Origin: Propionispira arboris
GTDB taxonomy: Bacteria; Bacillota; Negativicutes; Selenomonadales; Selenomonadaceae
Assembly: GCF_900109225.1 (NCBI RefSeq)
Contig: NZ_FNZK01000013.1
Span: 1-64,000 of the forward strand
Direction of reading: 5' to 3'
DNA: 64,000 nucleotides
In this document: in pieces, positions 11,380 to 23,159 of the stretch
Numbering within the stretch: position 1 is the first letter of the stretch
How the letters are laid out: each line of letters begins with the position of its first letter
Program-made: the position numbers and the translations under genes
The notes under the pieces: generated by a model
What the model saw: only the letters and a program-made list of their open reading frames with translations
Told to the model about the DNA's origin: nothing
Database searches by the model: none

Positions 11380-13242
11380 TTAACTCAAATCAATAATACG
11401 TTTAAATAATTTTACCCACATATCCTCATACTTTTGGATAATTGCAGGAACCTTCTTACTAAGCAGAACCTTTTTTGTCCCTCTTGCAATTTCTACCTTC
11501 CATCCACTACAAAGATCAATTTCATTAATCCGTGCAAATTCCTGTATCTGCGGAACAATTGGTTTTTCTTCATTATACACATCTACAAACGAATCATCTT
11601 CAACAGCTAAAAAAAGATGATTTACCCCCTGCTCCAATATTGAATACGGTAACAAATCCTCAATCTCACTGTTTTCTACGTTTGTATAATCTTTTATTTC
11701 CAATAAATTTTCTGTCACATTTTGGTAAATATGTTCTGCAAGTTTTTTCTTAAAATCGACCCCGCTTTTATCAGAATCAAGAATAACATATGGTAGTTTA
11801 CCATGTTTTCCGCCTAGTAAACTTACTATACCCGAAACACCTTTTACGCCACCAGCCGGAAGAAAAACAATATCTTTCTTGGGTGCCAATAACTTTTTAT
11901 AAATCAAATAATTTTTAATTGCATTTAAATAATATTGATCAGAAACCCCTTCAACAACTACTTCTTGACACCCTTGAAATAAAATATCCGACACACTCAG
12001 CCCTAGTGCCGCATGCACTGCATATACTGATTGATTTCCCAAGTCGCCAACACCATCTCTCAAATTGCTCGATGCTACTGTAAATCCATTTTTATCCAAA
12101 TAAACGACTCTGCAACGATCAATATTGCTAGTATCAACAATAAACGGAGAATGCGTAGTATTGATAATTTGATTTTTCTGCGCCAAATCATCAAAAAAAT
12201 GGCAAAGATCCTTTTGCGCAAGTGGATGTAATGTCAATCCCGCCTCATCTAGGAGAAGAATTGCGTTCTTATGCTGTTCTTGACTTTCAACTAAAAAAAT
12301 TAAATAAAAACTCAAAAACCATTGTAACCCTGTGCTTCGCAGCTCGAGGCCAACTTCATCCGTTCTAATTTTATCGGATACCCATATTCTAAAATAGTCA
12401 CCATCGGCTTCAAAACGAAACCGATATTCCCCTTGTTTCCACCATGCCTTAAATTCTTTTGTAAGCTCACCAGCTGCAGATTGTAAAAGTATGCTACGCT
12501 GTTCTTTATCATCTTCAGCTTTTTTAATTTCTTCTTTTGTTGGAACTTGATTACCATTTCTTCCCATCGCCAATATTTTAGGATCTTTTCCCAATTCTAA
12601 AATTTCCTGTGGTTCAAGATGTACAAAATCAAACAATACACGTAAAGTACGCACTTGGTCTTCATTAACGTCAACACCAGGCACAGTTTGACCATCTAAC
12701 CAGTTAATAGCATATGGCAAATAAATTCTCGATGAAAGATTCCCATAGTTCGAATAATACACAAATTTAGGGATTTCATGTACAATAGCCGTCGTTAGTT
12801 GCTCAAGAGAATATTCTTCAACTTCAACACCGTCCTGATCTTTATCCGGTTCTACTTTATTGGGATTTGGATTTCCTGCAGGAAACTCAATAGAATAGTG
12901 TTGGTCATAAAAACGTGTCAAAACAACCGTAACGCCACATCGACAATCACATTTTAATGTATCAGAAATATATGCCGCACTATCCTCATCAAGTTCAAAT
13001 TCGGCACTAATAAATGATGTTTCATACGTTAATTTTCTTAACCTACTCAGCTTTGATACAGGCATATCATGCAAAATGTCGATTTCGCCACCTCTTGCAG
13101 GATTAAGTTTCCAAAGCGCTAAAAGAAGATTTGATTTTCCAGATTCATTTATGCCTACTAAGGTAGTTACATCCTCACACTTTATCCATCCACTATTTTC
13201 AACAGACCGAAAATTTGTAACACAATATTTTAATAGTTTCAT
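11380..13242 (-). CDS. OLD-family ATPase-TOPRIM nuclease
   Basis: A 620-residue protein of the overcoming-lysogenization-defect (OLD) type, with an ABC-type ATPase fused to a TOPRIM nuclease. Walker A is GINESGKS (about residues 30-37). The middle has LRSTGLQWFLSFYLIF (signature region) and Walker B ILLLDEAGLTLHP. The switch histidine lies in NTTHSPFIVD. The TOPRIM part has EVVVEGVSDQYYL (catalytic Glu) and VILDSDKSG (DxD). Start 13242 has GGGGGA upstream. No UvrD-like helicase is beside it, so this is a stand-alone OLD rather than a Gabija pair. It probably degrades DNA of invading phages. Confidence 0.8.
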   Translation of the reverse strand: MKLLKYCVTNFRSVENSGWIKCEDVTTLVGINESGKSNLLLALWKLNPARGGEIDILHDMPVSKLSRLRKLTYETSFISAEFELDEDSAAYISDTLKCDCRCGVTVVLTRFYDQHYSIEFPAGNPNPNKVEPDKDQDGVEVEEYSLEQLTTAIVHEIPKFVYYSNYGNLSSRIYLPYAINWLDGQTVPGVDVNEDQVRTLRVLFDFVHLEPQEILELGKDPKILAMGRNGNQVPTKEEIKKAEDDKEQRSILLQSAAGELTKEFKAWWKQGEYRFRFEADGDYFRIWVSDKIRTDEVGLELRSTGLQWFLSFYLIFLVESQEQHKNAILLLDEAGLTLHPLAQKDLCHFFDDLAQKNQIINTTHSPFIVDTSNIDRCRVVYLDKNGFTVASSNLRDGVGDLGNQSVYAVHAALGLSVSDILFQGCQEVVVEGVSDQYYLNAIKNYLIYKKLLAPKKDIVFLPAGGVKGVSGIVSLLGGKHGKLPYVILDSDKSGVDFKKKLAEHIYQNVTENLLEIKDYTNVENSEIEDLLPYSILEQGVNHLFLAVEDDSFVDVYNEEKPIVPQIQEFARINEIDLCSGWKVEIARGTKKVLLSKKVPAIIQKYEDMWVKLFKRIIDLS

Positions 13243-13505
13243 CAAGGCTTCCCCCATATAAGAATTTAGCGTTCCAATTCACCCTTTTTCCTATTAGACA
13301 GATGTATTTCTCTTTAATTTCTAATACAACCTGCTCAAACAACCTCATCGTTACGACACTATATCATACGCCGCTGTCTTCCCTAAAAGACGCTAAAATA
13401 AGTAGATTTACGCCAATATATACTAACACAAAACACTTTACCGCTACTACGGCATTTATCACTATTGTAGTATTTTCTCCATTTCCACCACAATATCAAC
13501 GACTA

Positions 13506-14534
13506 TTATTTTTTTATAATTTCATTTACAGCCGTTACAAAAGCATTAATATCGGAAAAATAATTTGGATACGCAGCCTTTAATGTACCAAAAGAAGATA
13601 CGGATACTAAAACTGCGTCAATCTTATTGTTATCTCTACTACTTTCAATTTGATTATATTCTTTTGTTGCATCATCAATCTGGCTTGGTTTATAAAACTT
13701 CATTCTAAGATTTCGTTTAGAATAGTTTAAAATCAGTATATAATATCCCCTTCGCTTACTATTTTTTTCTTCTTCATGATCAACCGCTACGCGAATCGCA
13801 CTAAGCATACCTAAATAGTTGTGCTTAGCATCAAGCATTTTTATCTCTGAAATAATACCTTCTATATCTATAGGCGTTTCTGGTACAATTGGCATATTCT
13901 CTTTCATTGCAAACAAAGATGCTATTAATGCAAAAAAACGCAGGGTATTTTTTTTCCCATGGCTAGCTTTCAATGCTTGATTAGTAAACAATCCCATCGT
14001 TTCCAGTGCAGTAGCCCATAAATGCTGTAAATATGTTCGTATTTGAATTTCGATAAGCATATTTCTATTATATGTCTCTTTAGTATCACTTTGATATTGA
14101 TACACCAAATGATAACTTCTATATCCAGAGTACTTTGGCTGTTTAATATAGTCGTATTCTCTCTTTAGAATATGCCGAACACGAGAATGATTGTAATTTT
14201 CCGCTACTTCATATACATCATCAATGGTTGGAACAATAACACGGCATCCACCCAAATCTTGCATAGTCCAAAGATTCATAGTTGGTTCCCGTTCCAATTT
14301 TTTAACAATTGAAGCAAGACGTTTCAATCTCTGTGCGACAATAAACCCGGGTTTATCATACTTTCTTTTTAAATTGCAATAAATTACTTGAAGAGGAAAT
14401 GCATGTGAAGCTCGCCAGTTATCAATGGCATTTAAGGCCATTTGACACTCTTCTGACTTTGAAGCGGAATTTTTAATGATCTTTCCCGCTTTAATAATTT
14501 GATTTTTTGAGTATTCTGGTGATTTCCATTCCAT
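13506..14534 (-). CDS. RelA/SpoT-domain protein (possible alarmone synthetase)
   Basis: A 342-residue stand-alone RelA/SpoT nucleotidyltransferase-fold protein. Conserved points: MQDLGGCRVIV (the D and R of the metal and nucleotide site), PKYSGYRSYHLVYQY (the G-loop, with the stacking Tyr) and IEIQIRTYLQHLWATALE. There is no HD hydrolase, TGS or ACT domain. An N-terminal helical region (1-75) and a C-terminal region beyond residue 230 flank the domain. Known relatives make (p)ppGpp or act as toxic synthetases in defence. The setting next to OLD and PIN-like genes favours a defence role, which is inference. No separate antitoxin gene is evident. Confidence 0.7.
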   Translation of the reverse strand: MEWKSPEYSKNQIIKAGKIIKNSASKSEECQMALNAIDNWRASHAFPLQVIYCNLKRKYDKPGFIVAQRLKRLASIVKKLEREPTMNLWTMQDLGGCRVIVPTIDDVYEVAENYNHSRVRHILKREYDYIKQPKYSGYRSYHLVYQYQSDTKETYNRNMLIEIQIRTYLQHLWATALETMGLFTNQALKASHGKKNTLRFFALIASLFAMKENMPIVPETPIDIEGIISEIKMLDAKHNYLGMLSAIRVAVDHEEEKNSKRRGYYILILNYSKRNLRMKFYKPSQIDDATKEYNQIESSRDNNKIDAVLVSVSSFGTLKAAYPNYFSDINAFVTAVNEIIKK

Positions 14535-14658: not shown

Positions 14659-15465
14659 TTATTCTACATTTAGTAAGCGTGTTCTTACTACCCACAAAAT
14701 GTGCAGTACTGCATCAGTGGCAACAACAATTGTATATCCCAAAAGGGAAAAACCTTTGCGACCAATTTCAGCCAATTCATCCATCGACCAAGGTGCTATT
14801 TCAATAAAAGTCGTTCGACCAATAAAATCCGGATTATGACGAACAGCATCATCTGCTCGATGTGGCAAGGAAATAATAATGGCTTTTAGCCCATTAAAAA
14901 GCTCTGTTTTTAATATACGAGCAATATACATCTGCAATTCATCATTAATATAATAAAAATCATCCAAGACAAGTACCTTATTATTGTTTATCAAATATTC
15001 CATAATGGCACTATTACTACGAGACTCTTTCTCCGCAATATTTTGACCTGTAGCATAATCATATCCAGCCTGCCCGCCTATATCAGCTGAAGCAATAAAG
15101 GGAATCATAGCCTTGCTTCCGCCTTTGATACTCACATTTGCTTTATTCCCAACACTTTTTGTTATTTGGTCTTCTATTGGCAAACGGATTTTCTCAACTA
15201 TTTGATTCCAAAAATCTGCCTGCGTTTGAATTTGTGCTCCACTTAAGTCAATAATGCTGCTTTTCTCAATAACTTTATGGCATAAAATATTCTTCCCCGT
15301 TTTGGATGATCCTATTATTGATATTAACCGCCCTGAGCTTCTCAACGCCTTTTTTAACCTAAATTCATACGTATCATCACTTGAAATCAGCCGATCGATA
15401 TACGTATTCTGAGGAAATGAAGTCGGTCTGAATACATCTTCAATAGCATATTCATGTTTACCCAT
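14659..15465 (-). CDS. P-loop ATPase of the STAND/KAP kind, C-terminus apparently cut short
   Basis: A 268-residue protein. The N-terminal TSFPQNTYIDR resembles the FRPTxxPxxTYV entry to such ATPases. Walker A is SIIGSSKTGKN and Walker B VLVLDDFYYIND. There is a Gly/Ala-rich insert around residues 108-145. The tail after APWSMDELAEIGRKGFSLLGYTI looks as if it leaves the expected lid domain and ends in ILWVVRTRLLNVE, which suggests a frameshift or a deletion near 14,700. It is the last gene before the tRNA-Thr scar. Role unknown; an NTP-dependent defence switch would fit. Confidence 0.55.
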   Translation of the reverse strand: MGKHEYAIEDVFRPTSFPQNTYIDRLISSDDTYEFRLKKALRSSGRLISIIGSSKTGKNILCHKVIEKSSIIDLSGAQIQTQADFWNQIVEKIRLPIEDQITKSVGNKANVSIKGGSKAMIPFIASADIGGQAGYDYATGQNIAEKESRSNSAIMEYLINNNKVLVLDDFYYINDELQMYIARILKTELFNGLKAIIISLPHRADDAVRHNPDFIGRTTFIEIAPWSMDELAEIGRKGFSLLGYTIVVATDAVLHILWVVRTRLLNVE

Positions 15466-15712: not shown

Positions 15713-15756
15713 CATTCGTAATGAGCAGGTCGTAGGTTCAATTCCTATCATCAACT
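15713..15756 (+). other. 3' half of a tRNA-Thr(CGT), probable attachment-site scar
   Basis: CATTCGTAATGAGCAGG has a tRNA anticodon loop (TTCGTAA, anticodon CGT for Thr) and 3' strand of its stem. It is followed by a perfect T-arm, GTAGG-TTCAATT-CCTAT, and an acceptor-like CATCAAC. The 5' half is absent: bases before 15713 do not pair. No encoded CCA follows. A tRNA 3' half at the border of foreign genes is the usual trace of tyrosine-integrase insertion. A terminator follows, as after a real tRNA gene. Confidence 0.65.
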
Positions 15757-15770
15757 ACAGTGTTATCAAT

Positions 15771-15797
15771 GCCTCCGAGGTTTTCGGAGGCTTTTTT
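15771..15797 (+). terminator. Terminator behind the tRNA-Thr fragment
   Basis: GCCTCCGA pairs with TCGGAGGC (loop GGTTT-like), followed by TTTTTT. It was probably the terminator of the original tRNA-Thr transcript and marks the chromosomal side of the scar. Confidence 0.75.
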
Positions 15798-15989
15798 ATT
15801 ATCCATTGGTGCCACAAATTAGTGCCACTTTTATTTGAACTAATTAAATGTATAGAATCTAATTGAGAATAAACAGTACTATATAGAACGCATTAAAGAA
15901 ACCATATCCCGTCTATAAGTCTGCCAGAAATGGGGTATAGGGAATCGTTTGCTTCCTACGTAACGCCACTCAACCCTATACTGTTTTAG

Positions 15990-16285: not shown

Positions 16286-16365
16286 TAATAGTTGTTATAT
16301 TACCTTTTTTCCATTCGATTCGTCTGAGAAAGATCTATTTATGAACCTATAAGGAGTTTGATAAA

Positions 16366-19300
16366 ATGACACAATCTGCTGAACTTACCGGGGGAGCGGG
16401 CTTTAGCTTTGAAGCTGCCGTTGCTGCTTTTTACATGGCAGCTTTGCTTGAAGAAGATACTGCCCCGGCATTGCATAATCGAATTGTTAGTCGGGTTGCC
16501 CTCCAACAAGCGGCTTTTGGTGAGCCACTAGATGACATAATTGTTGATGCACACTCAAATAGTGGGGAACTAGGGCGATTGAGTCTGCAAGTGAAACGTA
16601 GTCTTACCGTCAGCATTGCCGCTTCGAACACTGACTTTAGAGAAATCGTTAAAAATTCCTGGGCAACACTACTAAAAGAAGGATTTCGTGAAAACATCGA
16701 CCGTTATGGAGCAGCGGTTGGTACTATTTCGGAAGCTTCTTGGCGAGATTTATATAGCGTTTGTGATTTTGCACGGGCTAGTTTAACTTATCAAACTTTT
16801 TTCCAGAGATTTAACGAGAATGGAAATGCAGGCTCAAATCATTTGCGTATCGTAGAGGTGTTTCGAACACTTCTTAATGAGTATGCAGGACAATCTGTTA
16901 CGGATTGCGATCTGTATTGCTTTCTCAAACATTTTGTTTTAATAAAGTTTGACTTTTTGCATGACGAGGCAACTGCTCCCGTCGAAGCCATTAAACAGCT
17001 TCGACATACTCTGGCAATTAGTGAGCAAAGCCGGGCCTCTGACCTGTGGGTTCGTCTGGTTATTCTTTCTCGTGAAGGAGCAGGACGCTCAGAGGAATTC
17101 AGTCGCCTTAGCCTCTTGGCAAAGCTCGCAGGTGAGTATCGTTTTACAGGTGCTTCCTCAATGAAAGCTGCTCTTGATCTACTTACTCAGTTAACTCATT
17201 TATGGCTTGAAGACATCACATCCGAGATTGATGATTTTCATGTAGCGCGACGCAGTTTGTTGGAGGAAATAAACTCCCTACTAGCTTCTCACCGATTTAT
17301 ACAGATAAAAGGACTACCAGGCACAGGCAAGTCAGTTTTATTAAAAGAAATCGTTCAATCCAAATTAGATGATGGGACAGTACTGTTTTTAAAATCGGAT
17401 CGACTCAATGGAAATAGTTGGGCTACATTCGCAAATAGTATTGGTTTAACAACACAAAACACAGAAATTTTGTTGTCTGAAATCGCAGTAACAGGTACAC
17501 CTACTCTCTTTATTGATGGTATTGATCGTATACAGCCAACACACCGAAAGATCGTTCTAGATCTAGTTAATACAATTATAAATTCGCCGGTACTGTCTTG
17601 TTGGCGTTTTGTGGTAACATCTCGCGATGTAGGTATTGAACCTCTTCGGAATTGGCTTCCAGCTAAACTATTTAGTAACGGAGGGGTTGGTACGGTTACT
17701 GTTGAGCCATTAAATGATGATGAAGCGAAAATACTTGCTATTGCCAAGCCTGAACTTAGAGCGTTGCTCTTTGCTGCAGGACGAGTTAAAGAAATTGCCA
17801 GGCGACCTTTTTTCGCATACGTACTAGCTCGGGGAATTTCTGCTGCCACCATGCAAACTAGTTTTGTGCCACAATCTGAAGTAAACTTAATTGAGGCGTG
17901 GTGGGATGGTGGTGGTTATCACTCTGAATCCCAAGAAATTTTTAAGCGACAACATGCATTGGAGGAATTAGCAAGAGTAAGCGCGCGCAGGTTTGGCTTG
18001 AAAATTTTATACTCCGAGTTGAGTATTAGCACGACAGAAATACTGCATAACTTAATTAATGATGGGATAATTCGCGAAATGAAAAAAGGTATTGCCTGTA
18101 AGTTTGCACATGACATTTTTTTTGAGTGGTCAGAATTCTATCTTTTAAGGCGTAAGGATGAGAACTGGATTGATGCACTGATAGATGCAGGAGAGCCTCC
18201 GATTTTAGGGCGTGTAGTTGAACTATTATCACAGTCATTTTTCCCTTCCGAACAGGAGTGGCTTGCACATCTTATGAGAATCGAAGTATCTGTATTGCGG
18301 TCACAATGGCAAAGGGCTTGGTTGTTAGGACCTTTTGGCATGCCGGATTTTAAGGACTCTATAACAACCTTTGAGAAAGCAATTTCTCAAGATAATTATC
18401 GACGACTTCGCAGTCTGTTTGTCTGGTTTCAGGCAGAAAAGACCGTTCCTAATAAACTTGTGTTGAATGGTCAGTTAATTTCTACAGAATTACCTTCATC
18501 TGAAATAATTCGAATTGCTGATATACTTGGCTGGCCTTCTGATTTTTCGACATGGCGCCGCCTTATAATGTGGACGCTTGAACAAGTAGATTATTTCCCT
18601 TGTACGGTAATCCCCGATATTATTTCTGTATTCGAAGTTTGGCAGAATGCCTTCGCAAACTATCAGAATGTTTTATCTGATAGGATTGTAAAAAAATGTT
18701 TAGATTGGCTTATTGATATTGAAGACAAGCTTCATCCCGAAGAGCGGAGCTACAATCTCGAAAAGTGGCGTGAATTGGATCACGATAATCTGAAAAATCT
18801 TGAAACATCCCTACGAAGGCTGGTTTTACGTTCAACCCGAACAGCATCAGCAATAGTGAAAGCATACCTTGAACGCGCAATATTAAAAGAACGAATTCGT
18901 AACGAAATATTTCCTGATGTCATTGATTTTTCAGTTATTCTTGCTGAACAATTACCAAATATACTTGCAGAGCTAACATGTGCGGAGCTTAAGGAAGAGC
19001 TACCCGAGGATATTCAGAAGCGATGGAAGACAGAACGGCATAGCATGCCGTTTAGTCAAACGACGTTGTCTTCTCATGATTGGAATCATTTATCTGTTGG
19101 TCGAGACCACCAAGTTTTTTCCCCTCCTTCTCCTTTGCGTGAGCCCTTTAATTCACTTTTCAATTCCTCATCACAACAAGCGTTGGAATTAATTCGAGAT
19201 CTTTTAAACCATGTGATGACTGCATGGTTGCAATTACATAAATTAAGTCACGAAAACCGTGGAACTCCTATTCCCGTGGTAATTGAGTTTTCTTGGGGGC

Positions 19301-21666
19301 AACAGACCTTTTGGGGAGATTGTCCAGAATATGGATGGTTTAGAGGTTGGTCTGGTCCCGAAGTGGTGCAGTGCGCTCTTATGGCGCTGGAAAACTGGGC
19401 CTTTCAAGAAATCGAAGAAGGCCGTGATGTTGATAGCGTATTACACGACGTTATACAGGGGCATCAATCTTGCTCAGTACTTGGAATTGCCATTGCGATC
19501 ATTTTAGAGACGCAACACGTATCCAAAACAACGTTGGCTATTTTAGCATGCCAAAGATTATGGCATATTGATCTTCGTCGGCAATTAGAAGAACATCCTA
19601 ACATTCCATCCAATCTTATCGGTTTCACTAAAATAACTGGGCAAGAAAATGCAGATAAATTACATTTCGAGGCAGTTAAAGCAGCAAATGGTCGAAAGTG
19701 CCGCAGAATGTCATTGCGCGACTTAACACCATTATTTATATGGAATCAGGATGAAGATATTCGACAAACTACGCGCGAAGCTTTGGTCCGCTTTCCAGTA
19801 GATTTACCGTTTGCCTATGAGGAAGAAAAAGCATCCCAATCACGTGTAAAGGAGTTTCTTTCCACTGCCGAAATTTGGGCGGAATGGGGCAAACAAGGAA
19901 ACTATAAGATGAGACCGAATGCGGGGGACGAAAGCTCGGTCATAGTACAGCTAGAAAACCCGAAGCTTGAAACACCTGAAATGCAGGCTAAGTTGACCCA
20001 CCAAGCAGAAAACATGCGTGAACTAACGTTGTGGAATTGGGTTCACAAAACTTTTGAAAAAAATTCTCTGTGTTGTGATATGGGATTAGCAGAAGTTTTT
20101 CAAATTGCGAAAGAGTTCGATCGTCCTGACCTTTTTAGCAGTCGTACATCAGACAATACTAAAATTTTAGGCAGTGTAGCCGGTGTCGCAGCAGCAATTT
20201 TATGCTTTAATCGAGAAGATCCGGAAAACACATTATGGGCTTCTGAAGTTATTGCGCGAGCCTACGATACTCCAGAAATAGAACATACTGTTCATTCATC
20301 CAGAGCGATCTTGCCCTGGCACCCATGCATTTTTGTTGCACGTGCATTGACCGCAGAAATTCAGCAATATTCAGATCCGGTTTCTAAGGAAAAGCTGCTG
20401 GTACTTGCGGGGCATCCGCTTGAATGCATTTCGCTTGAGGCATTGAAAGGTGCTTTTGATTGCTGGAATGTAGATAATCGATTGGCTTGGGCGGCTCTTG
20501 ATCTTGGACTGCGGCTCTCCATCGGTTCACGTCGTGGCGTACGTTCGGCTTATGGCTATGATTCAATGGAAGACGAAAAAAGCCGTCAACAATCCGTCAA
20601 TAAAGCTTTAGAGGGGTATTGGGGGAACCAAACCTATATAGATTTGACTCCTCCCCCGCAACCATGGGTCCAAACGGCGACCAAAAAGAACGTTTTTGGA
20701 AAACTGTTCGCTAGTGCTCAAACTTGGCATGAACCAGATCGGTTTTGGCGTTGGGATTATGCTCCTAAAGTATTAAAACTGGTACCTATTGAAAAGATTA
20801 TGCTTGATCCAGCTCGGCGAGCGCAATTTATGTGCCTTTGCGATAGTTTTCTCTCATGGACATTTGAAAAGATTAATCCTTCTTGGCAGAACGATGCTTC
20901 TCAAAAGAAAGATAGGAAAAAGACAGCGCTCTTTGCGTGGAAACGAGAACTTTCTCGATTGCTTGCAAATATTTCTGGTTATTTAGATACGAATGTAGTT
21001 CGGACACGATTTCTAAATCCTATTTTAGTACAAGAAGATGAGCTATGTGCCAGCTTTCTTGCCCCGTTTATCACCACATTCACGTGCATATATATACTTG
21101 ATACGAAAATAGTTGGGACCAATGCTATTCAAATTCTTGATATCTGTGTTGATCGTTTACTTTTAGACCATACATTCAAAAAAAACGGGTATAAAGATGG
21201 GGTTCTATATGGATCTGACCTGCCCTACATTGTACGCGACCTGTTTTTTATTTCGGTGGAAAATGCAGATGGTGCTGCGCGATTTGCTAATGGCAGATGG
21301 GAAGAAATACATCTTGTTTTACCAATTATAGATAAGTTTGTACGAAATACAGGATGGGCCTCTACTGTTGCCAGCGCATTCTTGACTTTATGTGAACGTT
21401 GTGGACCTTGTTATCCGGTGGAACTTTTTGCTGATCAGCTTCTGGCTTTTTTGGACATAAATCATTTACCGGGGTGGCGAGGGACTACACTCCCTGCGCG
21501 CATTGCCGGACTTATCCAGATTTATGCCGATAGGCGGTATCCACTTGAGCCACAGCTTGCACAAAAAATGCTACGAATACTTGATATACTTGTTAATCTT
21601 GGGGATCGGAGAAGTGCTGCTTTACAGTCAAGTGAAGCATTCAGAGATGTTCGTATTTCACAATAG
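16366..21666 (+). CDS. Avs/AVAST-like STAND NTPase with N-terminal nuclease domain
   Basis: A 1766-residue protein. Residues 9-80 have a Cap4/Mrr-like PD-(D/E)XK pattern: GGAGFSFEAAVAAFYMA with a helix Glu, the acidic pair LDDIIV (57-58) and LSLQVKRS (Q-x-K, 75-77). A STAND NTPase follows with Walker A GLPGTGKS (316-323), Walker B TLFIDGID (380-387) and an arginine sensor in VVTSRDVG. From about 560 to the end it is a long helical region without recognised repeats, where Avs proteins bind phage terminase or portal. The start has AAGGAG at nine bases. It is a single-gene system in its own island between integrase remnants, and it looks more GC-rich than its neighbours. The target protein cannot be told from sequence. 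Confidence 0.75.
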   Translation: MTQSAELTGGAGFSFEAAVAAFYMAALLEEDTAPALHNRIVSRVALQQAAFGEPLDDIIVDAHSNSGELGRLSLQVKRSLTVSIAASNTDFREIVKNSWATLLKEGFRENIDRYGAAVGTISEASWRDLYSVCDFARASLTYQTFFQRFNENGNAGSNHLRIVEVFRTLLNEYAGQSVTDCDLYCFLKHFVLIKFDFLHDEATAPVEAIKQLRHTLAISEQSRASDLWVRLVILSREGAGRSEEFSRLSLLAKLAGEYRFTGASSMKAALDLLTQLTHLWLEDITSEIDDFHVARRSLLEEINSLLASHRFIQIKGLPGTGKSVLLKEIVQSKLDDGTVLFLKSDRLNGNSWATFANSIGLTTQNTEILLSEIAVTGTPTLFIDGIDRIQPTHRKIVLDLVNTIINSPVLSCWRFVVTSRDVGIEPLRNWLPAKLFSNGGVGTVTVEPLNDDEAKILAIAKPELRALLFAAGRVKEIARRPFFAYVLARGISAATMQTSFVPQSEVNLIEAWWDGGGYHSESQEIFKRQHALEELARVSARRFGLKILYSELSISTTEILHNLINDGIIREMKKGIACKFAHDIFFEWSEFYLLRRKDENWIDALIDAGEPPILGRVVELLSQSFFPSEQEWLAHLMRIEVSVLRSQWQRAWLLGPFGMPDFKDSITTFEKAISQDNYRRLRSLFVWFQAEKTVPNKLVLNGQLISTELPSSEIIRIADILGWPSDFSTWRRLIMWTLEQVDYFPCTVIPDIISVFEVWQNAFANYQNVLSDRIVKKCLDWLIDIEDKLHPEERSYNLEKWRELDHDNLKNLETSLRRLVLRSTRTASAIVKAYLERAILKERIRNEIFPDVIDFSVILAEQLPNILAELTCAELKEELPEDIQKRWKTERHSMPFSQTTLSSHDWNHLSVGRDHQVFSPPSPLREPFNSLFNSSSQQALELIRDLLNHVMTAWLQLHKLSHENRGTPIPVVIEFSWGQQTFWGDCPEYGWFRGWSGPEVVQCALMALENWAFQEIEEGRDVDSVLHDVIQGHQSCSVLGIAIAIILETQHVSKTTLAILACQRLWHIDLRRQLEEHPNIPSNLIGFTKITGQENADKLHFEAVKAANGRKCRRMSLRDLTPLFIWNQDEDIRQTTREALVRFPVDLPFAYEEEKASQSRVKEFLSTAEIWAEWGKQGNYKMRPNAGDESSVIVQLENPKLETPEMQAKLTHQAENMRELTLWNWVHKTFEKNSLCCDMGLAEVFQIAKEFDRPDLFSSRTSDNTKILGSVAGVAAAILCFNREDPENTLWASEVIARAYDTPEIEHTVHSSRAILPWHPCIFVARALTAEIQQYSDPVSKEKLLVLAGHPLECISLEALKGAFDCWNVDNRLAWAALDLGLRLSIGSRRGVRSAYGYDSMEDEKSRQQSVNKALEGYWGNQTYIDLTPPPQPWVQTATKKNVFGKLFASAQTWHEPDRFWRWDYAPKVLKLVPIEKIMLDPARRAQFMCLCDSFLSWTFEKINPSWQNDASQKKDRKKTALFAWKRELSRLLANISGYLDTNVVRTRFLNPILVQEDELCASFLAPFITTFTCIYILDTKIVGTNAIQILDICVDRLLLDHTFKKNGYKDGVLYGSDLPYIVRDLFFISVENADGAARFANGRWEEIHLVLPIIDKFVRNTGWASTVASAFLTLCERCGPCYPVELFADQLLAFLDINHLPGWRGTTLPARIAGLIQIYADRRYPLEPQLAQKMLRILDILVNLGDRRSAALQSSEAFRDVRISQ

Positions 21667-22074: not shown

Positions 22075-22393
22075 TTGCCGAATATCCTGCATAGCTCCAC
22101 ACCGGACAGCGATTTTATCTGTTGCAAAGAAAACGGCGATACATATTCCCAAAACTACATTACTCATCGATTCAGTAAAGTTCTTGAAGAACTTTTCATC
22201 ACCAAGATTCACTATTCATGGCCTTCGCCATACCTATGCAACCATAGCGTTAGCAAACAACTTAGCCCTCAAGGTAATCTCCTAATTCCTCAATCATTCA
22301 AATATCGCCATAACCGCCAATATCTACTCCCATGTAACCAAGCCATTGGAGCGAAAACACACCAATACAATTGCCGATGCCATTTTTGATTAA
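22075..22393 (+). pseudogene. Frameshifted tyrosine integrase, C-terminal part
   Basis: A degraded tyrosine recombinase readable in changing frames. SDFICCKENGD and YITHRFSKVLE precede a box. After a shift the box HGLRHTYATIALAN (H-x-L-R-H) appears. After an internal stop and another shift comes NIAITANIYSHVTKPLE, with the catalytic Tyr in IYSHV, ending IADAIFD at 22393. The order and spacing are those of a phage integrase. It points to the tRNA-Sec-like fragment 120 bp downstream, the usual place of an integrase beside its attachment site. Confidence 0.8.
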
Positions 22394-22434: not shown

Positions 22435-22510
22435 GTTGCCAGCCATCTGTTTTCAATCACTAAAAAAGACCCCGTGCAAGCCACTGAAGCCTTGAATTAT
22501 CTGGCAGAGT

Positions 22511-22573
22511 GTGTGGATTTCAAACCCACGTTGTCTATTAACCACACTTGATTTCGAGTCCAATCCTCTTCAA
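22511..22573 (+). other. Degenerate tRNA-Sec-like 3' fragment, possible attachment-site scar
   Basis: GTGGATTTCAAACCCAC has the form of an anticodon arm with loop TTTCAAA and anticodon TCA (Sec), with one mismatch in the stem. A 20-base variable-arm-like stretch follows, then TTGATTTCGAGTCCAA, a decayed T-arm, and CCTCTTC. selC is a common integration target, and an integrase remnant stands just upstream. The decay makes this tentative. Confidence 0.4.
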
Positions 22574-22881
22574 ATTAAACCGCGATATTCTCTTCGCCCA
22601 TCTACAATAGCATAAACACAAACCGTTTTTTCTGCTTCATTCACCTTGTAAAATATCAAATGCCGTTCTACGATCAATATTCGATATCCCTGTCGCCGCA
22701 AAATGCTGTACCTAGGTTGTACACCTTTATAAGGAAAATCTGCTAATTGCATTACTGCCGCCTCAATTTTATCGAGATATGCTAACGCAATATTTACATC
22801 TCCAGAATCCACTGCAATATAATGGATGATATCCGACAATTGATCGTCAGCTTTATCTGTACGAATCAAAACATATTTCAT
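22570..22881 (-). CDS. RelE/ParE-family toxin
   Basis: A 103-residue toxin of a type II toxin-antitoxin pair. The family pattern is clear: RTDKADDQLSDIIHYIAVD, then AVMQLADFPYKGV, RQGYRILIVERHLIFYKVNE and VYAIVDGRREYRGL. ParE members poison gyrase and RelE members cut mRNA; the lack of a clear set of RelE catalytic residues makes ParE-like activity more probable. Its ATG overlaps the antitoxin stop (ATGA), showing translational coupling. It borders the end of the Avs-like island. Confidence 0.85.
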   Translation of the reverse strand: MKYVLIRTDKADDQLSDIIHYIAVDSGDVNIALAYLDKIEAAVMQLADFPYKGVQPRYSILRRQGYRILIVERHLIFYKVNEAEKTVCVYAIVDGRREYRGLI

Positions 22882-23159
22882 TTCTTATATTCCTCGCGAA
22901 TTGATGCTTTTAGCGTAGTAAAGCTTTCTTTCATCGGTGCCACACGACCTGCTGTCACATCTTCTTCGGCTTCGGCCAAAGTACGTAAAAGTTCAAGTTC
23001 TGCCCTCATTTGTTGATATTCATGAAAACTGAGCACAGCCGTATCTTCTCTACCATTCACAGTAATGACAACCGTCTCTCTCGTTTCATGACAAATTTTT
23101 GATATATCATTGTAATGATTCCGTAAATCAGCCGATGGTCGAATTGTTGCAATCCCCAT
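22878..23159 (-). CDS. Phd/YefM-family antitoxin
   Basis: A 93-residue antitoxin. The N-terminal DNA-binding part fits the Phd/YefM fold: ATIRPSADLRNHYNDISKIC, then TVVITVNGREDTAVLSFHEYQQM. The C-terminal helix would neutralise the toxin encoded right behind it with a 4-base overlap. The start has AAGGAGG upstream. Such antitoxins normally bind their own promoter; the AT-rich 23,160-23,200 stretch is the likely site. Confidence 0.85.
   Translation of the reverse strand: MGIATIRPSADLRNHYNDISKICHETRETVVITVNGREDTAVLSFHEYQQMRAELELLRTLAEAEEDVTAGRVAPMKESFTTLKASIREEYKK

Follow-up and report, generated by a model that had tools for sequence, protein, structure and literature searches.

Does the 1766-codon gene in this stretch of Propionispira arboris DNA (the window, 64,000 nucleotides in full) encode an antiphage sensor of a new kind, or a distant relative of a known Avs type? 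The open reading frame lies where the first-pass annotation placed it (Table 1); its frame is intact, and it occurs in one copy in the genome. The protein has the architecture of the Avs class: an N-terminal effector, a central STAND NTPase with Walker A and Walker B motifs, and a long C-terminal helical sensor. Its reading as a single-gene Avs-like protein holds, since a nuclease head and a STAND core are followed by a tail of ~1170 aa that is mostly helical in the model.

The motifs on which that reading was built (LDDIIV, here residues 55-60; QVK; GLPGTGKS; LFIDGID) all occur in the protein and are no chance resemblances, because their key residues are invariant in full-length homologues. 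In alignment A1, which comprises 30 such homologues with 34-49% identity to the 1766-aa protein, D56, D57, Q75, G316, G319, G321, K322, D384 and D387 are invariant in all 30; K77 is at least 90% conserved, and at least 7 of the 8 positions of AHDIFFEW are invariant. A NACHT profile matches the STAND core with E 5e-05, which is below its curated cut-off.

Table 1. Features of the Avs4-related gene and its surroundings (window coordinates)
Feature	Position	Strand	Basis or remark
OLD-type ATPase	11380-13257	-	
RelA/SpoT protein	13506-14534	-	PDC-S33 match, E 1e-122
PDC-S59-like ATPase	14659-15465	-	apparently shortened
tRNA-Thr(CGT) 3'-half copy with terminator	15713..15803	+	att-like remnant
Shine-Dalgarno-like AAGGAG	16351..16356	+	sequence; 9 nt upstream of ATG
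Avs4-related nuclease-STAND gene, 1766 aa	16366..21666	+	ATG at 16366, stop ends 21666
N-terminal head, residues 1-262, predicted PD-(D/E)xK nuclease, Cap4/LmuA/HamA/DUF4297 fold	16366..17151	+	AlphaFold2 model, Foldseek + VIA, PADLOC
Asp57 codon, predicted catalytic	16534..16536	+	invariant in A1; start of second core strand
QVK motif, residues 75-77	16588..16596	+	Q75 invariant, K77 nearly; third core strand
STAND/NACHT NTPase core, ~residues 294-460	17245..17745	+	NACHT profile; EcAvs4 profile match
Walker A GLPGTGKS, residues 316-323	17311..17334	+	invariant Gs and K322
Walker B LFIDGID, residues 381-387	17506..17526	+	D384 and D387 invariant
AHDIFFEW, residues 581-588, counterpart of Avs4 THDIYEEW	18106..18129	+	conservation, alignment with Avs4
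Helical-repeat sensor tail, residues 600-1766, Avs4-like fold	18163..21663	+	AlphaFold2 model, structure match to 8DGF
Broken tyrosine recombinase fragment (HGLRHTYATIALANN..., frameshifted)	~22075..22390	+	three-frame translation; assigned by motif

The head is predicted to be a PD-(D/E)xK nuclease akin to Cap4, LmuA, HamA and DUF4297. The AlphaFold2 model of residues 1-290 (pLDDT 89) comprises, in order, a helix, three strands, a second helix and a further strand; D57 lies at the start of the second strand, and QVK is on the third. A nuclease fold had been expected within the first 150 residues; according to the model and the structure matches, it is present within the first ~120. The top structural matches (Foldseek and VIA; Z 12-13) are LmuA, Hachiman, HerA-DUF, Cap4 and Avs3. 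The head thus resembles Cap4/DUF4297-like nucleases both in its fold and in its D ... QxK residues. Cap4, Lamassu LmuA, Hachiman HamA and HerA-DUF4297 nevertheless work with other sensing partners and lack a STAND core or Avs4-like tail.

By sequence, the head is recognized by the PADLOC model DUF626_VIII (E 1e-31), which covers residues 1-273 in 17 of 17 heads tested. The name of this model presumably denotes a part of retron type VIII; no explanation of it was found in the literature on retron type VIII or DUF626. It is 474 aa long and, unlike the 1766-aa protein, has no such tail. PDC-M54A, another PADLOC entry and a candidate model only, matches weakly over residues 10-588. None of the same 17 heads matches a Pfam nuclease model, including Cap4 or DUF4297, and searching PDB sequences with the head by itself returned nothing useful. 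A similar head (29% identity over residues 1-255) occurs in a 560-aa protein on the Agrobacterium plasmid pAt (L078:5001-6683). Because that protein adjoins genes for trypsin-like proteases, the head may also work in other systems.

The tail decides the kinship. It had been described as unlike Avs1-4, a view contradicted by profile, bridging-sequence and structure comparisons, all of which single out Avs4. The tail and the Avs4 sensor are remotely homologous. Its AlphaFold2 model (pLDDT 85.6) superposes on portal-bound Avs4 (8DGF) with Z 26.5 over 981 residues, spanning the whole tail length; the runner-up is a generic HEAT-repeat protein with Z 11.3. Foldseek gives E 2e-18 for the same pair. 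The best PDB match of the family profile is again EcAvs4 8DGF (E 2.3e-20), with the STAND core, middle and tail aligned, and a tail of a type unlike any known one is ruled out by this profile match together with the structure score. PADLOC and NCBIfam both match Avs4 at residues 865-1171. Among the other types, Avs3 (8DGC) shares the nuclease fold of the head (Z 12.9) on a STAND core and is absent from the best tail matches, where Avs4 leads; Avs2 gives weak matches confined to the STAND core.

The protein is nonetheless no close or ordinary Avs4 and belongs to a separate clade. This follows from its score of 84.7 bits on the NCBIfam Avs4 model NF041815, whose equivalog cut-off is 1500, from a sequence identity to Avs4 of ~13-15%, and from its place in the tree. 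In the HMM comparison proposed in the first pass, Avs4 is matched across the tail, at a remote distance. Bridging proteins connect the family to canonical Avs4. Genomes of the same phylum supplied both the canonical Avs4 proteins (L049-L051) and the three bridging proteins (L052, L053 and L069). The latter reach 520-580 bits against the Avs4 model, with L052 and L053 below the cut-off. In hhalign, the family aligns with the bridging proteins over their full length, including the head (E 3e-65), and with canonical Avs4 over 1003 columns (E 6e-20). The protein and Avs4 (AVAST type 4; EcAvs4) share the STAND core, the AHDIFFEW/THDIYEEW element and the fold of the whole tail. The heads appear to differ: Avs4 is described as Mrr-headed. 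The STAND region of canonical Avs4 starts near residue 195, and the head of the 1766-aa protein is ~100 residues longer and matches the Cap4/LmuA/Avs3 folds.

The wider family, from one genome scan, comprises ~45 related loci; by record title they come from about ten phyla, including Pseudomonadota, Nitrospirota, Nitrospinota, Acidobacteriota, Verrucomicrobiota and Campylobacterota. In the tree, these relatives form a clade apart from canonical Avs4 on a long branch, while the placement of the bridging proteins, which have long branches, is uncertain (the tree tool issued a warning). Clade genes are currently annotated as 'NACHT domain-containing', 'ATP-binding' or 'hypothetical' proteins. The clade apparently has no name in the openly licensed literature, which is what was covered; an earlier mention is possible, including in the original Avs surveys.

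Three members (L020, L031 and L035) carry an unrelated head of ~200 aa on the same STAND core and tail. Since they are placed among nuclease-headed members in the tree, head exchange has occurred inside the clade. The swapped heads have no convincing Pfam family match and are possibly an undescribed effector or adaptor. One tentative extension is that the clade constitutes a separate AVAST type, with an Avs4-derived sensor, a changed ligand and heads that can be swapped, one of them an undescribed effector of ~200 aa found in members from Pseudomonas, Leptothrix and Burkholderiaceae; as a whole, this proposal is doubtful.

The gene probably encodes an Avs-type one-gene antiphage sensor-effector, in which the Avs4-like tail senses a phage structural protein and Cap4-type heads cut DNA in an abortive defence. 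The known trigger of Avs4 is the phage portal, and the portal is the first candidate here because the tail scaffold is that of Avs4; of all the steps proposed by analogy, this one is the least sure. Binding of this or another conserved phage structural protein by the tail would induce ATP-dependent oligomerization of the NACHT core, bringing the N-terminal Cap4/LmuA-type PD-(D/E)xK heads together. The heads might then cut double-stranded DNA, so that infection is aborted and the cell lost. Binding, oligomerization, DNA cutting, cell suicide and defence itself are all proposed from what relatives do. Avs1-4 kill via a nuclease, with terminase and portal as triggers (PMC12931631), and in AVAST, Hachiman and Lamassu, sensing leads to oligomerization, which switches on the fused effectors (PMC12799240).

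The remoteness of the match to Avs4 leaves room for a shifted or new trigger, which is, however, no longer the default. The tail might retain the Avs4 scaffold and have drifted to a phage protein other than the portal, or to several, with the rest of the machine the same. The long branch, the separate clade and the low identity to Avs4 are consistent with such drift, as is the finding that Avs5 proteins of one architecture differ in phage specificity (PMC12931631). The whole tail, on the other hand, superposes far better on portal-bound Avs4 than on other PDB entries, and a drifted ligand is judged rather unlikely.

The genomic neighbourhood bears on whether the gene acts alone. Across 39 related loci, the same neighbour turns up in groups of 3-4 at most, which is what a one-gene system should show; a partner gene for the 1766-aa protein is ruled out on this ground. 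The lack of a conserved neighbour and the unrelated head in three members together suggest that a single gene encodes sensor and effector and that its head can be exchanged. The annotation's phrase 'alone in a small island' holds up. The tRNA-Thr 3'-end copy and the broken tyrosine recombinase that flank the gene support a small island, and 'alone' is right in the sense that no neighbour recurs widely, but defence-like genes (OLD, PDC-S33 and PDC-S59) do lie to the left of the gene. G+C content is 42% in the gene and 33-37% in its neighbours, compared within the window. No empty site was found in a same-genus genome, the flanks giving only short repeat and tRNA matches. Three smaller features also occur here: a ParE/Phd toxin-antitoxin pair to the right of the island (22570-23159, minus strand); an interspersed repeat of ~100 bp (window 15879-15982), with at least ~35 copies in the same-genus genome G001; and a segment at 22480-22600 that by eye resembles a tRNA 3' half (TTCAAA, anticodon-loop-like) and is not called by ARAGORN or Rfam.

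Relatives are found on plasmids and beside transposases and recombinases. These settings would also suit a protein that acts against plasmids or other mobile DNA, or a regulator outside defence. Such a role is improbable: Avs4, to which the tail is homologous, binds a phage protein (8DGF), and some relatives adjoin antiphage genes, two of the ten neighbours scanned being known defence genes (Dsr2 by L003 and a CBASS E1-E2 gene by L005). The search for phage-borne copies gave 0 matches in 50,697 phage records; IMG/VR contigs gave three matches. Several relatives (L029, L038, L041, L045 and L027) are broken by frameshifts or stops. Mobile defence genes are often interrupted in this way.

Decay of the P. 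arboris copy itself, as a non-functional relic in an old island, would fit its broken integrase and tRNA remnant flanks. It would also fit the truncated copy L073 / L047 in genome G071 (same class, different family); this copy keeps the first ~165 codons and then meets a stop. Its 61 bp of upstream sequence and ~165 codons share 89% DNA identity with the P. arboris locus. Against this fragment, dN is 0.046 and dS 0.33 (dN/dS ~0.14), which points to purifying selection. This ratio and the intact 1766-codon frame rule against a decaying gene; with conserved motifs and a ribosome-binding site also in place, decay is hardly credible.

What is apparently new here is an Avs4-related clade with another nuclease group as its head. 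The reach of the portal-sensing Avs4 scaffold is extended to a large clade, as yet unnamed, that spans many phyla, and one sensor scaffold goes with different heads. At 13-15% identity, the clade allows a concrete check on whether the phage ligand can be predicted from the sensor fold.
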